Below are positions 257 to 21,413 of a stretch of 21,413 bases of DNA, in pieces. The position numbers were made by a program, and so were the translations under genes. A model generated the notes under the pieces. That model saw nothing but the letters and a program-made list of their open reading frames with translations, did not search any database and was not told where the DNA came from. The stretch is from a virus. How positions within the stretch are numbered: the stretch's first letter is position 1; every line of letters starts with the position of its first letter. The DNA is taken from positions 1-21,413 of the IMG/VR virus record IMGVR_UViG_3300044731_000867, one strand, 5' to 3'.

Positions 257-634
257 ATGATTCTCACAAGAGAAATAAATATAAAAATTAATATAAATAA
301 TTTAAATTATTTTACCAATCTTGGATATGAAACCACGATAGGAGAAACTATTGTTATACCACCTGAACTACTCTCAAAAGGATCTCACTTTAAAATAAAA
401 TGCAAATGTGATTCTTGTGGAATTGAGAAAAGTATAATCTATAAAAACTATTTACTATATGATAATGAAAAATGGGGAGATTATCTTTGTAGAAAATGTT
501 CAGAACCAAAAAGAAAAGACACTCTCAGAAAATCATTTGGAGTTGACTATCCAATACAAAATAATGAAGTAATGGATAAAATGAGGAAAACTCTAGATAC
601 AAAACGAGATAAAAATAAAAACCAAAATGGCTAA
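257..634 (+). CDS. Zinc-knuckle protein with a nuclease-associated (NUMOD-like) motif
   Basis: This 125-residue protein has a CKCDSCG motif (Cys49, Cys51, Cys54) and a CRKC pair (Cys78, Cys81), which together look like a C4 zinc knuckle. A lysine-rich segment, FGVDYPIQNNEVMDKMRKT (about residues 94-112), resembles the short DNA-binding modules found in phage homing-type and free-standing endonucleases. In those proteins the zinc module and such repeats usually precede a nuclease domain. Here the protein stops straight after one copy, with a basic tail, and no catalytic domain is visible. It may be a DNA- or RNA-binding remnant or a minimal stand-alone module. Its last 8 bases overlap the start of the RNase R gene, so the two are probably translated from the same transcript. 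The leader is A-rich. Confidence 0.7.
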   Translation: MILTREINIKININNLNYFTNLGYETTIGETIVIPPELLSKGSHFKIKCKCDSCGIEKSIIYKNYLLYDNEKWGDYLCRKCSEPKRKDTLRKSFGVDYPIQNNEVMDKMRKTLDTKRDKNKNQNG

Positions 635-2531
635 ATATAAAGAAGGAGATATAATAGAATCTCAAATAGAATTTTCAATATCCGGAAATGGAACATTAAA
701 ATTTGAAGGAAAAGAATTTTTTATTCACAAAAAAAGAACAAGTAACTCACTACATTTAGATACAGTAAAAGTTAAACTATTTGATAATGGTAAAAAACTA
801 GAAGCAGAAGTGATAGAAGTTGTGAAAAGATTTAAAACAGAATTTGTAGGAACAACTCAAGTAAAAAAGGATCACACATTTGTTATACCAGATAATCCAA
901 AAATACATGTTGATTTCTATATAAAAGGATCTCACAAAGCTGATGATAATCAAAAAGTTTTAGTTGAATTTATTGGATGGGAAAATGGACAAAAATCACC
1001 AAATGCTAAAATTACTAAAATTTTAGGATCTATAGGGGAGAATGAAACCGAAATGAATGCTATAATGTATGAATATGGCTTACCTGTTGATTTCCCTCAA
1101 GAAGTTTTAAATGAGGCAGAAATAATGCCTGAAGTAATAACAGAAAATGAAATATCAAGAAGAAGAGATCTAAGAAATGTACCAACAATTGGAATAGATC
1201 CACATGACTCAAAAGACGCAGATGATACTATAGGATTGGAATTTAAAGATGGTAAAAGATTTATTTCTATAAACATAGCGGATGTCACACATTATATAAA
1301 ACCAGGATCAGAATTAGACAAAGAAGCATTAAGAAGATCAACATCTGTTTATTTAGTCGATAGATGTGTTCCAATGTTACCAAAGAGGTTGAGTAATGGT
1401 ATATGTTCACTCAAATCTGGAAGTGATAAATTATGTTTTTCAGTGATTGTAGAGTTAAATAATGATGGGAGAATAGAAAGTACTTGGTTTGGTAAAACCA
1501 TAATAAATGTAGATAGAGACTATTCTTATGAAATGGCTCAAGAAGTTATCGACAGAGGAACACCATCAGAAGAATGGAAAGATTGTGATTCAGCAATTCT
1601 AGAATTAAATAGATTAGCTAGAAAAATGAGAAAGAGAAGAATTTTGGGTGGTTCTATGGAAATAGGAGGAGTTGAGGTTAAATTTAAATTAGCAGATGAT
1701 GATAAAAAACCAATAGGGGTTTATTTAAAAGAACAAAAAGAGGCTAATCATTTAATAGAAGAATATATGTTATTAGCAAATAGAGAAGTTGCTAAATTTA
1801 TAAAGTCTAGAAATCTACCATGTGTCAATAGAATACACGAAGAACCTGAAGAAAGTAAATTAGAACATTTCAAATCATTTGTATCCGGTTTAGGATATAA
1901 TATACACTTTGGTGATACGGTTGAAAAGACAAAGTTGGTTATAAATGAATTAATCAAAACGATAAAAGGAGAACCTGAAGAGAATATAATAACAACTCTA
2001 ATAATAAGAGCTCAACAAAAGGCTAAATACTCTACCAGAGACTTAGGTCATTATGGATTAGGTTTCCAACACTATTCACATTTTACATCACCAATTAGAA
2101 GATATAGTGATATTCTAACACATAGATTATTATCTAAAGCATTAGGACAAGAAAAATATAAAGGTGAGTTAACACCAGCTGATTTAGCTAGCAAATGTGA
2201 ATGGATTTCAAAACAAGAAGTTGTTTCATCTAAAGCTCAAAGAGATTCGATTAAATATAAACAAGTGGAATATTTAAGTGATAAAATCGGTAAAGTATTT
2301 GATGGTATAGTTTCAGGTGTATTGGATAGAGGTATTTATATAGAATTAGAAGAAAATAAATGTGAAGGTCTAATAAGATTATCAGAACTACCAGGAAAAT
2401 GGATGGCATATCCAGATAAATATGTTGCGATAAGTCAATTAGGAGAGGAAATAAGATTAGGTGATAAAATTAAAGTTGTTGTAAAATCAACAAATTTAGA
2501 AAAGAAACAGATAGATTTTTTAAAATTTTAA
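627..2531 (+). CDS. rnr: RNase R / RNase II family 3'-5' exoribonuclease
   Basis: This 634-residue protein is predicted to degrade RNA processively from the 3' end in the cytoplasm. Two cold-shock-like OB domains lie at about 20-68 and 72-133. The RNB catalytic domain (about 178-510) holds DPHDSKDADD with Asp191, Asp197, Asp199 and Asp200, the same spacing as the four metal-binding aspartates of E. coli RNase II. It also has HLIEEYMLLAN (375-385) and FTSPIRRYSDILTHRLL (486-502), both family signatures. An S1 RNA-binding domain follows at about 553-625. Bacterial RNase R is usually over 700 residues; this copy lacks the N-terminal helix-turn-helix region and the basic C-terminal tail. All core motifs are intact, so it is likely active. 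It sits between a zinc-knuckle gene (8-nt overlap) and an unknown gene 3 nt downstream. Whether it acts on host or phage RNA is unknown. Confidence 0.93.
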   Translation: MAKYKEGDIIESQIEFSISGNGTLKFEGKEFFIHKKRTSNSLHLDTVKVKLFDNGKKLEAEVIEVVKRFKTEFVGTTQVKKDHTFVIPDNPKIHVDFYIKGSHKADDNQKVLVEFIGWENGQKSPNAKITKILGSIGENETEMNAIMYEYGLPVDFPQEVLNEAEIMPEVITENEISRRRDLRNVPTIGIDPHDSKDADDTIGLEFKDGKRFISINIADVTHYIKPGSELDKEALRRSTSVYLVDRCVPMLPKRLSNGICSLKSGSDKLCFSVIVELNNDGRIESTWFGKTIINVDRDYSYEMAQEVIDRGTPSEEWKDCDSAILELNRLARKMRKRRILGGSMEIGGVEVKFKLADDDKKPIGVYLKEQKEANHLIEEYMLLANREVAKFIKSRNLPCVNRIHEEPEESKLEHFKSFVSGLGYNIHFGDTVEKTKLVINELIKTIKGEPEENIITTLIIRAQQKAKYSTRDLGHYGLGFQHYSHFTSPIRRYSDILTHRLLSKALGQEKYKGELTPADLASKCEWISKQEVVSSKAQRDSIKYKQVEYLSDKIGKVFDGIVSGVLDRGIYIELEENKCEGLIRLSELPGKWMAYPDKYVAISQLGEEIRLGDKIKVVVKSTNLEKKQIDFLKF

Positions 2532-2534
2532 ACA

Positions 2535-2990
2535 ATGGGACAATTATTTAGAATAGAAGAAGATTCTCATTTAAAAAATAGAAAATATAAGTTCTATTTA
2601 GATGGAATTAAATTATCACAGTTTGAAAAAAATTTTCAAAAGTGGCCACAATGGACACAATTTAAAAGAGAAATTAAATTAAATACTCTATTGGAAGGTA
2701 AAAGAATTCAATTTAACATTGAAGATATTAATGAATATGGGAAACTAAGTGGAAAGGCTTTTGATCCGATGATGTCTGATATAGTTTTCACAGTTAAAGG
2801 AATATCAATGATTCTTAAAGATGACTTTGTAGAAGAATTAGAAATTGAGTGGAGACCATTACAAACAGAATTAGGTAGGACAATAATTGGAGTATTAGAC
2901 TCCGGAATAGAACTTGATTTATCAATATACTTCGATGATACTGGTCAGTTTGTTTATTTTTATATAAAAGAAGAAAAAAATATAGCATAA
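2535..2990 (+). CDS. Unknown 151-residue protein downstream of RNase R
   Basis: The start lies 3 nt after the RNase R stop, so the two genes are almost certainly co-transcribed and probably translationally coupled. The protein is mixed alpha/beta and rich in aromatic and charged residues, with a WPQWTQF segment near residue 37 and the motif EIEWRPLQTELG near residue 113. There is no signal peptide, membrane segment or recognisable catalytic motif. It could be a partner of the ribonuclease, but that is only a guess from position. A bidirectional terminator follows its stop codon directly and ends the plus-strand unit. Confidence 0.8.
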   Translation: MGQLFRIEEDSHLKNRKYKFYLDGIKLSQFEKNFQKWPQWTQFKREIKLNTLLEGKRIQFNIEDINEYGKLSGKAFDPMMSDIVFTVKGISMILKDDFVEELEIEWRPLQTELGRTIIGVLDSGIELDLSIYFDDTGQFVYFYIKEEKNIA

Positions 2991-3019
2991 AAAACCTCTC
3001 AAATTGAGAGGTTTTTTTT
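2990..3019. terminator. Bidirectional intrinsic terminator
   Basis: An A-run leads into CCTCTCAAATTGAGAGG (2995-3011), followed by a T-run. The stem has six pairs plus an A-T pair, with A and T tracts on either side that let it work in both directions. It ends the RNase R unit on the plus strand and the portal gene on the minus strand. Confidence 0.88.
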
Positions 3020-3032
3020 ATAGTAATTATTA

Positions 3033-4763
3033 TTAAAATTCAAATTCTGATCCTCCTCCTTGAGCTGGTGGAGTTTCAGTAGCGGCTTGACCACCTTGAG
3101 CAGGTGCCTGTGCACCTCCTTGAGCACCCATTTCAGAACCACCTTGAGCACCCATTTCAGAACCACCTTGAGCACCCATTTCAGAACCACCTTGAGCACC
3201 CATTTCCATTCCAGCCTGGGCACCACCAGAACCAACACCGGAACTATCTTTTGCCCAGTATTTTTGATTTTCTGCTTTTTCCTCCGGAGTCAATTTAAAC
3301 ACATGATCCATAATCCACTCAATGTGAAAGTAAGGCTTATCACCATTCATAATTCCGGTCAATGTACCAATTGCCTCGGCTCTTTTTGCTAAATTGTTTA
3401 TTTTTTTCCATTCTTCAAAAATTTGATTAGAGTTGAAATTAATATCTATTTCATTCATTGCAACTTCATCTTCAATAAGTTCTGGAAACTCAACCAACAT
3501 TTGCAATTTTATAGGTTTAACAATCAATTCTTTAAAATTGGCTCTTAATCTACCAATAAAGTTGTGAAATTTAACCTCATCATTGGTTAACCCAGATTGT
3601 TCTGATACAAATGTACCACCACCACTCTCAGCCTCAAACCTAGTAACCGGTATCTTAGAAGCTCTTTTAAGTGCTTGATGAAACCACTTTAACATAGACT
3701 CTTCATTTAAATCATGTCCTTGTGGTGTCATTAATTCCATATTAGGTGTACCTGCGTCACCTTCAGGAAACCAAACTTGTTTATTATAAGGTATATGTTT
3801 TGCACCATTAACTTGAATAGTACCTAATGATTCATCAAATTCAATCTCTTCTGAATAATCCTGTATCAGTTGACCTATTTGTTCTTCGGCCTTTTGACGA
3901 GACATACCTTTAATTGGAATAGTGAATTTTTGATAAATTGTCGCATTCATAATGTTAAACATAATTCTAGTTTGTTCTAGAATTTTTAACTGATTATAAG
4001 GCTTAATCAAACCCTCAACATATGATGTCTCAGAATAATCATTCTGAGAAGAATAGGATATAAAAACAATTTGTGAATCTAAAAATATTCTTCTCAACTG
4101 AGGATCTTCTGGAAATTGAATCCATAAGTGACCAACATTTGGCTCATAAGCAGGAACTATACTTTCAGGTCTTAACCTATTGAAAGCAATTATATTTTTC
4201 TTTTTATCATCCCAAACCAATTCAATTGCAATATAACCATCGATGAGAAAGTCTTTCATCATTTGATAAGCAGTAACACTATCAGAAAATCCAAATTTAT
4301 TGTAAACTTTCTCAAAGTATTCTTGATACTTATCAGTTATTTCTTTAGAATAATCATTTGAAAGAGGAGATGGTGAACAGAAATCTTTTGTATCATTATA
4401 AACAATTGATTCATCAGCAATAGCGCTCACAAAATCCCTAATTTCATCTTTAATTGAATATTCTCTTAATATCCTTCTTTTATCTGGATAAGATCTATCT
4501 AAATATGGAACGGATTTTCTATTCAAAACAGATGCCACAGCTCTCTGCGAAAAGAAATTATACATCGAATCACCTTTAGCACTATAAGGATCTTCATTAA
4601 TACCAACACCAACTTGGTTTCTAATTATCATATCATCATAATTCATACCATAATTGGATAAATTACGAAGTATTCTATTAAAAAGACCTTTATTTTCAAC
4701 AGCGGAATTGACAAAACCCATTCCATCACCACTGTTATTATTTCTATAATTATAAGAAGCCAT
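3033..4763 (-). CDS. 20: Portal vertex protein, T4 gp20-like
   Basis: This 576-residue protein would form the dodecameric ring at one head vertex through which the packaging motor threads DNA and to which the neck and tail attach. The match to the T4 gp20 family is clearest in residues 256-425: a helix around YNQLKILEQTRIMFNI, the KAEEQIGQLI segment, a PQGHDLNEESMLKWF loop, and the stretch IPVTRFEAESGG followed by LTNDEVKFHNFIGRLRANF. T4 gp20 is 524 residues; the extra length here is a Gly/Ala/Gln tail (about 510-576) with perfect 8-residue repeats of GAQGGSEM. The ATG at 4763 has an A/T-only leader with a TATATATA element about 20 nt upstream. The terminator at 2990-3019 lies just downstream. 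Confidence 0.93.
   Translation of the reverse strand: MASYNYRNNNSGDGMGFVNSAVENKGLFNRILRNLSNYGMNYDDMIIRNQVGVGINEDPYSAKGDSMYNFFSQRAVASVLNRKSVPYLDRSYPDKRRILREYSIKDEIRDFVSAIADESIVYNDTKDFCSPSPLSNDYSKEITDKYQEYFEKVYNKFGFSDSVTAYQMMKDFLIDGYIAIELVWDDKKKNIIAFNRLRPESIVPAYEPNVGHLWIQFPEDPQLRRIFLDSQIVFISYSSQNDYSETSYVEGLIKPYNQLKILEQTRIMFNIMNATIYQKFTIPIKGMSRQKAEEQIGQLIQDYSEEIEFDESLGTIQVNGAKHIPYNKQVWFPEGDAGTPNMELMTPQGHDLNEESMLKWFHQALKRASKIPVTRFEAESGGGTFVSEQSGLTNDEVKFHNFIGRLRANFKELIVKPIKLQMLVEFPELIEDEVAMNEIDINFNSNQIFEEWKKINNLAKRAEAIGTLTGIMNGDKPYFHIEWIMDHVFKLTPEEKAENQKYWAKDSSGVGSGGAQAGMEMGAQGGSEMGAQGGSEMGAQGGSEMGAQGGAQAPAQGGQAATETPPAQGGGSEFEF
3123..3194. repeat. Three perfect 24-bp tandem repeats in the portal tail
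   Basis: The 24-bp unit beginning AGCACCCATTTCAGAACCAC occurs three times without a mismatch at 3123, 3147 and 3171, and a partial fourth unit begins at 3195. It encodes GAQGGSEM in frame on the minus strand. Length is a multiple of 3, so gain or loss of units would keep the portal frame open. Perfect identity points to recent expansion or active slippage. Confidence 0.93.
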
Positions 4764-19412: not shown

Positions 19413-21413
19413 TTAGCTCTGAGCAGCACCACCACCACCACCACTTTCACCTAGTTTCTTATAGATAAAGTCTTCAAATGCAGAACCTTCAGAGAATAGA
19501 GTATTCAAATTATACAATAAACTAGCGATAACACCTAATTTAATTAATTCCGGACTTTTTTTACTTTGTTTATTATTAATAACCTTAGTATTAACACCAA
19601 CCTCTTTTTTCTTAACATCAACAGATGATTTACCACCATCTCGATCCAATATCTTAGAAAGGGCGGCTGATTTAGATTCCAAAACTTTTAAAACCTTATC
19701 CAAAGATTTAGAATCAACTGCGGATAAAGTAGCAATATTAGTTGTCAATCCATTAAGTTGGTTTAATTTATCAGTATCTATATTTTTAATAGATGATGTA
19801 AATTTACTTAAAGATTTTGACAATTTATCAAATGACTTAGCCATCTTAACTATTCCATCTGTTATATTATTTATTGACTTATTATTAAATGATTTGTCAT
19901 TTATAAGACCAGATTTCTTACTCTTCTCAATCATTTTTAAAAGTTTTATATAACTGGATATATTTCCAATTATATTTTTCATATAATTAGGTGAAATATT
20001 ATTAGAAAAATATTTAGAATTTATACCAAACTTCTTAGAAATACGTATCATGTCATCAGCGACTAAATCAACAGAAGATTTACCAAAATTGTATTTCAAA
20101 CTATTTCTAAAGAGAACAAATTTTCTCATACTAGAAACCATATCAGATAAACTCTTATTGATATTGTTGTTAAATTTAACAGCTGATAATTTTTTAGAGG
20201 TATCAACAATAGACTTAACCAACTTATTTAAATTAGAAATTTTCACAAAATCAAACATTGAAGTTGAATTTAACAATCTTCTAAAAGATTTAATAGCACT
20301 AGAAATACCCTTAGACCATTCAGAATTTGGATAATTATCAAATTTACCACTTGATAAAATCGAACCAACTCTTTTTATACCATATGATATAGAAATAATA
20401 GAATCTTTAAACTCATCCACATCAGGACCAGATCCAAATAAACCACTACTATCACTCAACATCTTATAAACAGGCATAAATCCTTTAATCGATTCAGAAA
20501 CTCCCTTAGACCACTCATATGTAGGTCCATTTTTATAAATATCACCCAATGCTAATGATTTTGCAGCTGTGACGATACCGGTTGATATTGTTTGAATAGC
20601 ATTTGAAAATTCACTAATAGATGGAGCAGAACTAAACCAACTTTGAGAATCAGATAACATCTTATAAACAGGCATAAATCCTTTAATCGATTCAGAAACT
20701 CCCTTAGACCACTCATATGTAGGTCCATTTTTATAAATATCACCCAATGCTAATGATTTTGCAGCTGTGACGATACCGGTTGATATTGTTTGAATAGCAT
20801 TTGAAAATTCACTAATAGATGGAGCAGAACTAAACCAACCATCACTATCTGCCAACATTTTATAAACAGGCATAAATCCTTTAATCGACTCAGAAACTCC
20901 TTTACCCCATTCGTAGGTAGGTCCATTTTTATAAACAACACCAACTGCTAATGATTTTGCAGCAGTGACTATACCTGTTGATATTGTCTCAATCGAATTT
21001 GAAAAATCTTCAATAGAAGGTGCAGAACTGAACCAACCTTGTGAATCAGATAACATTTTATAAACAGGCATAAATGCCTTAATTGCCGAACCAACACCAG
21101 ATGCCCATTCAACACTAGGACCATCTTTATAAAGAACACCAACTGCTAATGATTTCGCAGCTGTGACGATACCTGTTGATATCGACTCAATCGCTTTTGA
21201 AAAATCTTCAATAGATGGCGCAGAACTGAACCAACCATCACTATCTGCCAACATTTTATAAACTGGTGAAAATGCTTTAATTGCCGAACCAACACCAGAT
21301 GCCCATTCAACACTAGGACCATCTTTATAAACAACACCAACTGCCAATGATTTTGCAGCAGTAACTATACCGGTCGATATCGATTCAATCGCTTTTGAAA
21401 AATCTTCAATAGA
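19413..21413 (-). CDS. Tape-measure protein candidate, 5' end outside the window
   Basis: The frame is open across the right window edge, so at least 667 residues are C-terminal sequence of a longer protein. The visible N-terminal part is made of 66-residue tandem repeats (pattern VYKMLxDSxxWFSSAPS, then ISTGIVTAAKSLA), hydrophobic and helical. A long Lys/Ser/Asn helical region follows (about 20450 down to 19600), then a hydrophobic LGVIASLLYNLNTLF and a Gly-rich end, GGGGGAAQS. A long repetitive helical protein leading a tail gene unit fits a tape-measure protein, which sets tail length. An internal TTG at 21345-21347 can be read as a start but lies within a repeat and is rejected. Another large tail or adhesion protein is the main alternative. 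Confidence 0.68.
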   Translation of the reverse strand, partial: SIEDFSKAIESISTGIVTAAKSLAVGVVYKDGPSVEWASGVGSAIKAFSPVYKMLADSDGWFSSAPSIEDFSKAIESISTGIVTAAKSLAVGVLYKDGPSVEWASGVGSAIKAFMPVYKMLSDSQGWFSSAPSIEDFSNSIETISTGIVTAAKSLAVGVVYKNGPTYEWGKGVSESIKGFMPVYKMLADSDGWFSSAPSISEFSNAIQTISTGIVTAAKSLALGDIYKNGPTYEWSKGVSESIKGFMPVYKMLSDSQSWFSSAPSISEFSNAIQTISTGIVTAAKSLALGDIYKNGPTYEWSKGVSESIKGFMPVYKMLSDSSGLFGSGPDVDEFKDSIISISYGIKRVGSILSSGKFDNYPNSEWSKGISSAIKSFRRLLNSTSMFDFVKISNLNKLVKSIVDTSKKLSAVKFNNNINKSLSDMVSSMRKFVLFRNSLKYNFGKSSVDLVADDMIRISKKFGINSKYFSNNISPNYMKNIIGNISSYIKLLKMIEKSKKSGLINDKSFNNKSINNITDGIVKMAKSFDKLSKSLSKFTSSIKNIDTDKLNQLNGLTTNIATLSAVDSKSLDKVLKVLESKSAALSKILDRDGGKSSVDVKKKEVGVNTKVINNKQSKKSPELIKLGVIASLLYNLNTLFSEGSAFEDFIYKKLGESGGGGGAAQS
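20461..21413. repeat. 198-bp tandem repeats within the tape-measure candidate
   Basis: The same landmark (GCTAATGATTTTGCAGC or close variants) recurs at 20551, 20749, 20947, 21145 and 21343, each exactly 198 bp apart, equal to 66 codons. The array continues past the window edge, and a degenerate copy precedes it toward 20240. Copies at 20461-20641 and 20659-20839 are identical over 181 bases, while others differ at many third positions, so that pair is a recent duplication. Confidence 0.95.

Follow-up and report, generated by a model that had tools for sequence, protein, structure and literature searches.

In Escherichia coli, the N-terminal helix-turn-helix (HTH) of RNase R is required for Lon/HslUV recruitment, and a K/R-rich C-terminal tail recruits the enzyme to tmRNA-SmpB ribosomes (PMC12320835). 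The RNase R of Bacteroidota has the domain order CSD1-CSD2-RNB-S1 and the catalytic aspartates, is mostly devoid of the K/R-rich tail, and is the closest cellular relative (~40-47% identity) of the phage protein described here. RNase II (CSD-CSD-RNB-S1) resembles this phage protein in having no HTH, but matches it much more weakly in sequence.

Bacteriophage T4 relies on the RNase II, RNase R and PNPase of its host (PMC3014915). As to enzymes encoded by phages themselves, an "exoribonuclease" of unspecified type is listed in a gut phage genome of the phAss-1 group (PMC10607447), while PHROG 13933 ("nuclease") and orf16 of Lactococcus phage Q54 are phage-encoded RNB proteins, the latter differing by its length (528 aa) and by its grouping with Firmicutes (98/64, on a long branch). 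SmpB and tmRNA have been reported in huge phages, in an article whose main text does not mention RNase R (PMC7162821), and a literature search that covered articles without their supplements, and few subscription papers, found no paper discussing RNase R in megaphages. An earlier, sequence-only reading of the DNA studied here had placed a phage RNase R outside the known T4 toolkit. This is right for T4, which uses host exoribonucleases, but phage-encoded RNase R is contained in public phage genomes and in the PHROGs (phrog_13933), and is therefore uncommented rather than unknown.

Here we describe an RNase R gene (rnr) in a 21,413-nucleotide stretch of viral DNA (IMG/VR record IMGVR_UViG_3300044731_000867), hereafter the window. 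Overall, the enzyme itself is known and its setting is new: it is encoded by a megaphage core gene, is an HTH-less variant and, in one sublineage, comes from a split gene. Should our reading hold, some of the largest phages would not depend on borrowed host RNA decay alone: a processive 3'-5' exoribonuclease of their own would be among their core genes, accompanied by ribosome-rescue parts. The means by which giant phages maintain a supply of ribosomes and nucleotides throughout infection would then become testable.

The RNase R gene of the window

The rnr product (Table 1) shows the domain order CSD1-CSD2-RNB-S1 by Pfam and in an AF2 model, CSD1 being recognised chiefly from structure; its Pfam match (CSD1/OB_RNB) is weak (4.7e-5, slightly below the curated cut-off). 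The best solved relative by sequence is B. subtilis RNase R (8cdu; PDB search, E = 1.1e-106), while the match to RNase II is far weaker (5e-33). The AF2 model (pLDDT 79; 17 phage sequences) comprises two OB folds, an RNB core, a long terminal helix and an S1 fold, and in the fold search it matches 8cdu with a TM of 0.88 (E = 2.8e-53) and 5xgu with a TM of 0.84-0.85; RNB core and fold are thus those of the E. coli and B. subtilis enzymes. An alignment of 24 RNase R (phages, Bacteroidota, Firmicutes, Gammaproteobacteria) shows no variation at the four catalytic aspartates, nor at R491/R492 of the HFTSPIRRY motif and Y301. A profile search found rnr on at least 80 related phage contigs. Judged by these comparisons, the gene encodes a genuine RNase R with intact active-site residues and chance similarity is excluded; Pfam, the alignment and the fold match agree with the earlier statement that the four aspartates and the RNB and S1 signatures are intact. 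The protein is assigned to RNase R and not to RNase II on the basis of the E-values and of its nesting among bacterial RNase R, in trees that contained no RNase II row.

Table 1 Position of rnr, its domains and the adjoining features in the window
Feature	Position	Strand	Basis or remark
F0: 125-aa CxxC protein, DUF7487-like, akin to homing-endonuclease N-termini	257..634	+	phrog_5104 / phrog_12131
rnr: HTH-less RNase R exoribonuclease, 634 aa, ATG start	627..2531	+	ORF, Pfam, PDB/fold matches
CSD1-like OB fold, residues 1-67	627..827	+	five strands in AF2 model; weak OB_RNB Pfam match
CSD2 cold-shock domain, residues 85-157	879..1097	+	Pfam CSD2 4.6e-22
RNB catalytic domain, residues 179-506	1161..2144	+	Pfam RNB 3.6e-100
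Catalytic aspartates D191, D197, D199, D200	1197..1226	+	invariant across alignment
Loop, residues 511-519; split site in six related phages, uninterrupted in the window	2157..2183	+	split coordinates and model
S1 RNA-binding domain, residues 552-631	2280..2519	+	Pfam S1 1.7e-10
F3: 151-aa conserved protein	2535..2990	+	3' of rnr in 77/81 loci; weak prohead-protease fold match
Intrinsic-terminator-like hairpin, F3/portal gap	2989..3017	.	-15.2 kcal/mol, z = -6.8, T-run
T4 gp20-type portal gene, convergent to rnr	3033..4763	-	Pfam Portal_T4 2.2e-57

Absence of the HTH and of the basic tail

In the alignment, 29 residues precede the FFIHKK column in the phage protein versus 101-114 in most Bacteroidota. 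With a start ~75-80 residues further along than in Bacteroidota RNase R, the phage protein has no HTH, and among 81 phage loci no ORF longer than 644 aa was found at rnr. At the other end, the window protein extends 3 residues past the last S1 strand, where the rows for Firmicutes and Gammaproteobacteria continue for 70-90 K/R-rich residues. Yet almost every Bacteroidota RNase R sampled likewise stops at S1 or shortly after it, and long charged tails occur only in L078 and L086; the K/R-rich tail therefore does not define the RNase R family as a whole.

The residue counts at both termini bear out the earlier observation that the HTH and the basic tail of cellular RNase R are missing. The proposal that this minimal form is a phage adaptation stands for the HTH, whose loss is phage-specific, and falls for the tail, the absence of which is already the normal state in Bacteroidota. 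The phage protein thus differs from the E. coli and B. subtilis enzymes at both ends, but from the Bacteroidota enzymes only by its N-terminus and by being encoded beside a portal gene and, having no N-terminal HTH, it is classed as an HTH-less RNase R variant. Given that the HTH of the E. coli enzyme is needed for Lon/HslUV recruitment, the phage form may be under less proteolytic control than its cellular counterpart, in which case it would be a naturally occurring example of catalysis uncoupled from regulation.

A core gene beside the portal in Mahaphage-type megaphages

Of the window phage, a single fragment of 21.4 kb is on record; relatives lie on contigs of up to 508 kb. According to Pfam and PHROGs, the neighbours of rnr in the window include a gp20-type portal, a head-closure protein, a tail tube, a late sigma factor and an SbcD-like nuclease. 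The adjoining portal, head-closure, tube and late sigma genes explain why the phage had been labelled T4-like; the label describes these morphogenesis genes, but the phage belongs to the lineage of >500-kb Mahaphage-type megaphages. In a first search, orthologues of rnr with 51-98% identity were found on 38 IMG/VR contigs, and the nearest named genomes are LR745206 (635 kb, 54%) and LR756502 (642 kb, 48%). The gene order F0-RNR-F3-F2-F4-F5-F7 is common to the window and LR745206 (locus L040); within the stretches compared, the shared order around rnr and portal was not seen in LR756502 or in the 508-kb contig (L035). By the gene order shared with LR745206, the window phage is assigned to the Mahaphage-type megaphage lineage. 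Michniewski et al. grouped Mar_Mega_1 (OU342829) with LR745206 and LR756502 (PMC9723777), and Bacteroidetes hosts were predicted for the genomes >634 kb, all of which belong to the Mahaphage clade (Al-Shayeb et al., PMC7162821).

F0 lies upstream of rnr in all 77 loci with enough sequence, F3 downstream in 77 of 81, and portal next to rnr in 81 of 81, many of these loci being on the same contigs as in the 38-contig search. The cassette F0-rnr-F3 is also present in the 635-kb megaphage LR745206. F0 (125-156 aa), rnr and F3 (~150 aa) share one strand, which is mostly opposite to that of the flanking genes. In the window and in most relatives, the 3' end of F0 and the beginning of rnr share 8 nt, which suggests translational coupling of the two genes; no Shine-Dalgarno-like stretch is evident ahead of rnr. 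The hairpin between F3 and portal was not listed by a consensus terminator scan. Comparison of the loci identifies rnr as a core gene of the megaphage lineage, carried within the head-gene cluster as part of a cassette of three genes.

F0 evolves under a low dN/dS (0.068) and F3 faster (0.29). The view of F0 as a decaying endonuclease remnant was rejected as a general picture, since its length, position and low dN/dS are conserved; that F0 is a partner of RNase R is speculation. The F3 model weakly resembles prohead (core) proteases (Foldseek, E just above 0.001), and no conserved Ser/His was seen in F3.

Two repeat-bearing ORFs were observed elsewhere in the window. The portal translation ends in tandem GGSEMGAQ-type repeats, and the ORF at 19413-21347 contains long internal repeats of ~65 residues (VYKDGPSVEWASGVGSAIKAF...) with no Pfam match; its product is possibly a tape-measure-like protein.

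Origin and selection

In a tree of 73 proteins, which included 30 hits from 198 Bacteroidota genomes and was sampled from Bacteroidota, Firmicutes, Gammaproteobacteria and a few MAGs labelled Chlorobiota, the phage RNase R rows form one clade (100/100) within Bacteroidota (node 97/94) on a stem of 0.63 substitutions per site. L043 adjoins the phage clade in a smaller tree (98/93), but not in the larger one. The RNase R of LR756504 (L042) is very divergent (601 aa, 31% identity, long branch) and may belong to the phage clade (support 62/99, not starred). The best cellular identity to the phage RNase R is ~47%. The GC3 and codon use of rnr match those of the remaining window genes (RSCU r = 0.975), i.e. 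the gene is ameliorated. The median dN/dS of rnr, 0.063 against 0.082 for portal in pairs that share branches and hence are not independent, indicates strong purifying selection.

These data point to a single old capture of rnr from a Bacteroidota host, followed by retention, and not to a recent pick-up. They uphold the earlier suggestion of a phage-adapted lineage: the proteins form a long-stemmed phage clade instead of falling inside one host genus with near-identical sequences, and codon use agrees. Recent host contamination or pick-up has some precedent in that several rnr hits in INPHARED are host chromosome, but the ~47% best cellular identity, the fully supported phage clade and the invariable adjacency of portal leave it practically no probability, and we reject it. 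The INPHARED hits in question (H9, H27-H30) are apparent host chromosomal rnr, with for instance smpB, purA or tRNA neighbours; because several such "phage" records carry host-like chromosomal rnr, the record labels overcount phage RNase R.

Split rnr genes in one sublineage

At six loci (L026, L028, L030, L031, L033 and L034), rnr is in two pieces, the first ending at residue 511 and the second beginning near 519-524. In the AF2 model, this is the loop that joins helix 493-506 to helix 517-553; the split yields an RNB piece and a helix+S1 piece. In four of the six, the pieces are separated by a 1.3-1.5 kb insert with an antisense ORF of 362-432 aa (interrupted in L028), which matches phrog_559 "HNH endonuclease" (1e-103) in the two copies scanned; in L030 and L031 the gap measures 40-47 nt and holds no endonuclease. 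The six loci form one clade (98/100). Purifying selection is seen in the two pieces alike (median dN/dS 0.114 and 0.066, again from non-independent pairs), which argues that both are in use.

A group I or II intron at the split gave no Rfam match, an intein is discounted by the ATG of the second piece and the lack of intein-like sequence, and L030 and L031, whose adjacent pieces have offsets (1540 and 1538 nt) that correspond to different relative frames, speak against a single conserved frameshift or bypass that would join the pieces. The split rnr is therefore classed, from its sequence features, as genes-in-pieces: two ORFs with a homing endonuclease or its scar between them, both apparently maintained. 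In phage Aeh1, insertion of mobE into nrdA resulted in a working two-piece enzyme, and T4 gene 60 is split as well (mobA); like rnr here, both are phage enzyme genes broken in two by a homing endonuclease gene of the HNH type (PMC2988022). What differs here is the enzyme concerned, RNase R, the antisense orientation of the endonuclease gene, and the occurrence of two split relatives that lack an endonuclease. Whether two chains can make a functional RNase R, and the role of its S1 domain, could be tested on these naturally split copies.

Proposed role and the ribosome-rescue genes

We propose, as the probable course of events, that an ancestor of the Mahaphage-type megaphages captured an intact rnr once, anciently, from Bacteroidota, that the gene was then inherited vertically as a core gene, and that its product clears RNA from the 3' end. 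The phage RNase R would be made during infection, removing host transcripts as well as spent ones of the phage, even structured RNAs, and allowing their nucleotides to be recycled. Phage-supplied 3'-5' RNA clearance during infection is most likely its main use. No PNPase-family gene was found in eight rnr-bearing phage records.

SmpB is encoded in LR745206, LR756502, LR756504 and the 508-kb contig (Pfam, E ~1e-50) and, with the addition of G205, G207 and G215, in every examined rnr-bearing phage record >350 kb. The latter three are the RNB-bearing ones among 12 SmpB-bearing contigs chosen from an SmpB search, and thus form a biased sample for rnr/SmpB co-occurrence. The association is real but not strict, since rnr was not detected by tblastn in the SmpB-bearing Lak phages or in the 735-kb LR756501. 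A tmRNA above the Rfam threshold is present in the 508-kb contig (called by ARAGORN, too), LR756504 and G215; in LR745206 and LR756502 no match reached that threshold. G003 (248 kb), the rnr of which is 73% identical to that of the window, has a full-length tmRNA match below the threshold (32.8 bits, E 9.5e-11; L110 1501-1871, - strand), ~10 kb from rnr, which ARAGORN did not call. In the window's own subclade, whose contigs are fragments, G003 is the only contig with tmRNA, and none has SmpB. Although rnr and smpB usually lie far apart, in G215 (a 362-kb contig; L152/L197) they are ~2.5 kb from each other on one strand (rnr end near L152:913, smpB at L152:2962), with sigma-factor-like ORFs, the tmRNA being elsewhere; its RNase R is a 641-aa HTH-less protein whose phage-clade placement is not starred.

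The fact that the same megaphages carry SmpB, and some also tmRNA, makes it probable that part of the work of RNase R would be the decay of non-stop mRNA and of rescued-ribosome messages during phage translation. A trans-translation link is plausible, and it would need another contact, as the K/R-rich tail is absent (likewise in most Bacteroidota RNase R). The same missing recruitment tail and the usual distance between rnr and smpB are consistent with a general scavenger, which would break down the host's mRNA and rRNA, thereby recycling nucleotides and shutting off the host, with no particular SmpB/tmRNA link; bacterial RNase R is able to degrade structured RNA and 30S subunits (PMC12320835). 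In view of the co-occurrence with SmpB and tmRNA and of the clustering in G215 and G003, we regard this as quite possible, albeit short of probable. At the other extreme, RNase R, SmpB and tmRNA, which are found together in single records (the 508-kb contig, LR756504 and G215), could constitute a phage-owned trans-translation system dedicated to non-stop mRNA decay, which would keep ribosomes free after mRNA is cut by endonucleases of phage or host. This is rather unlikely considering the lack of the recruitment tail, the presence of SmpB in Lak and 735-kb phages that show no rnr, and the failure of LR745206 and LR756502 to yield an above-threshold tmRNA. A part of RNase R in crRNA processing in the type III CRISPR system of Staphylococcus epidermidis (PMC12320835) raises a further option, counter-defence or regulator processing, whereby the enzyme would trim phage RNAs or destroy crRNA or tRNA fragments derived from RNA-targeting defences; we hold it to be improbable, given that neither defence nor anti-defence genes were recognised in the cassette and that a core-gene pattern would be less typical of arms-race genes.

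RNA clearance from the 3' end thus remains our preferred reading. A broader picture, a megaphage-owned RNA quality control composed of HTH-less RNase R, SmpB and tmRNA, with a two-chain RNase R in one sublineage and F0 as a possible partner, is offered tentatively and is, taken as a whole, unlikely. The tag that ARAGORN reads in the 508-kb contig, AKSKTTATQVEELEIA (listed for the tmRNA at L109 1502-1894, - strand), has an ending other than the usual LAA.
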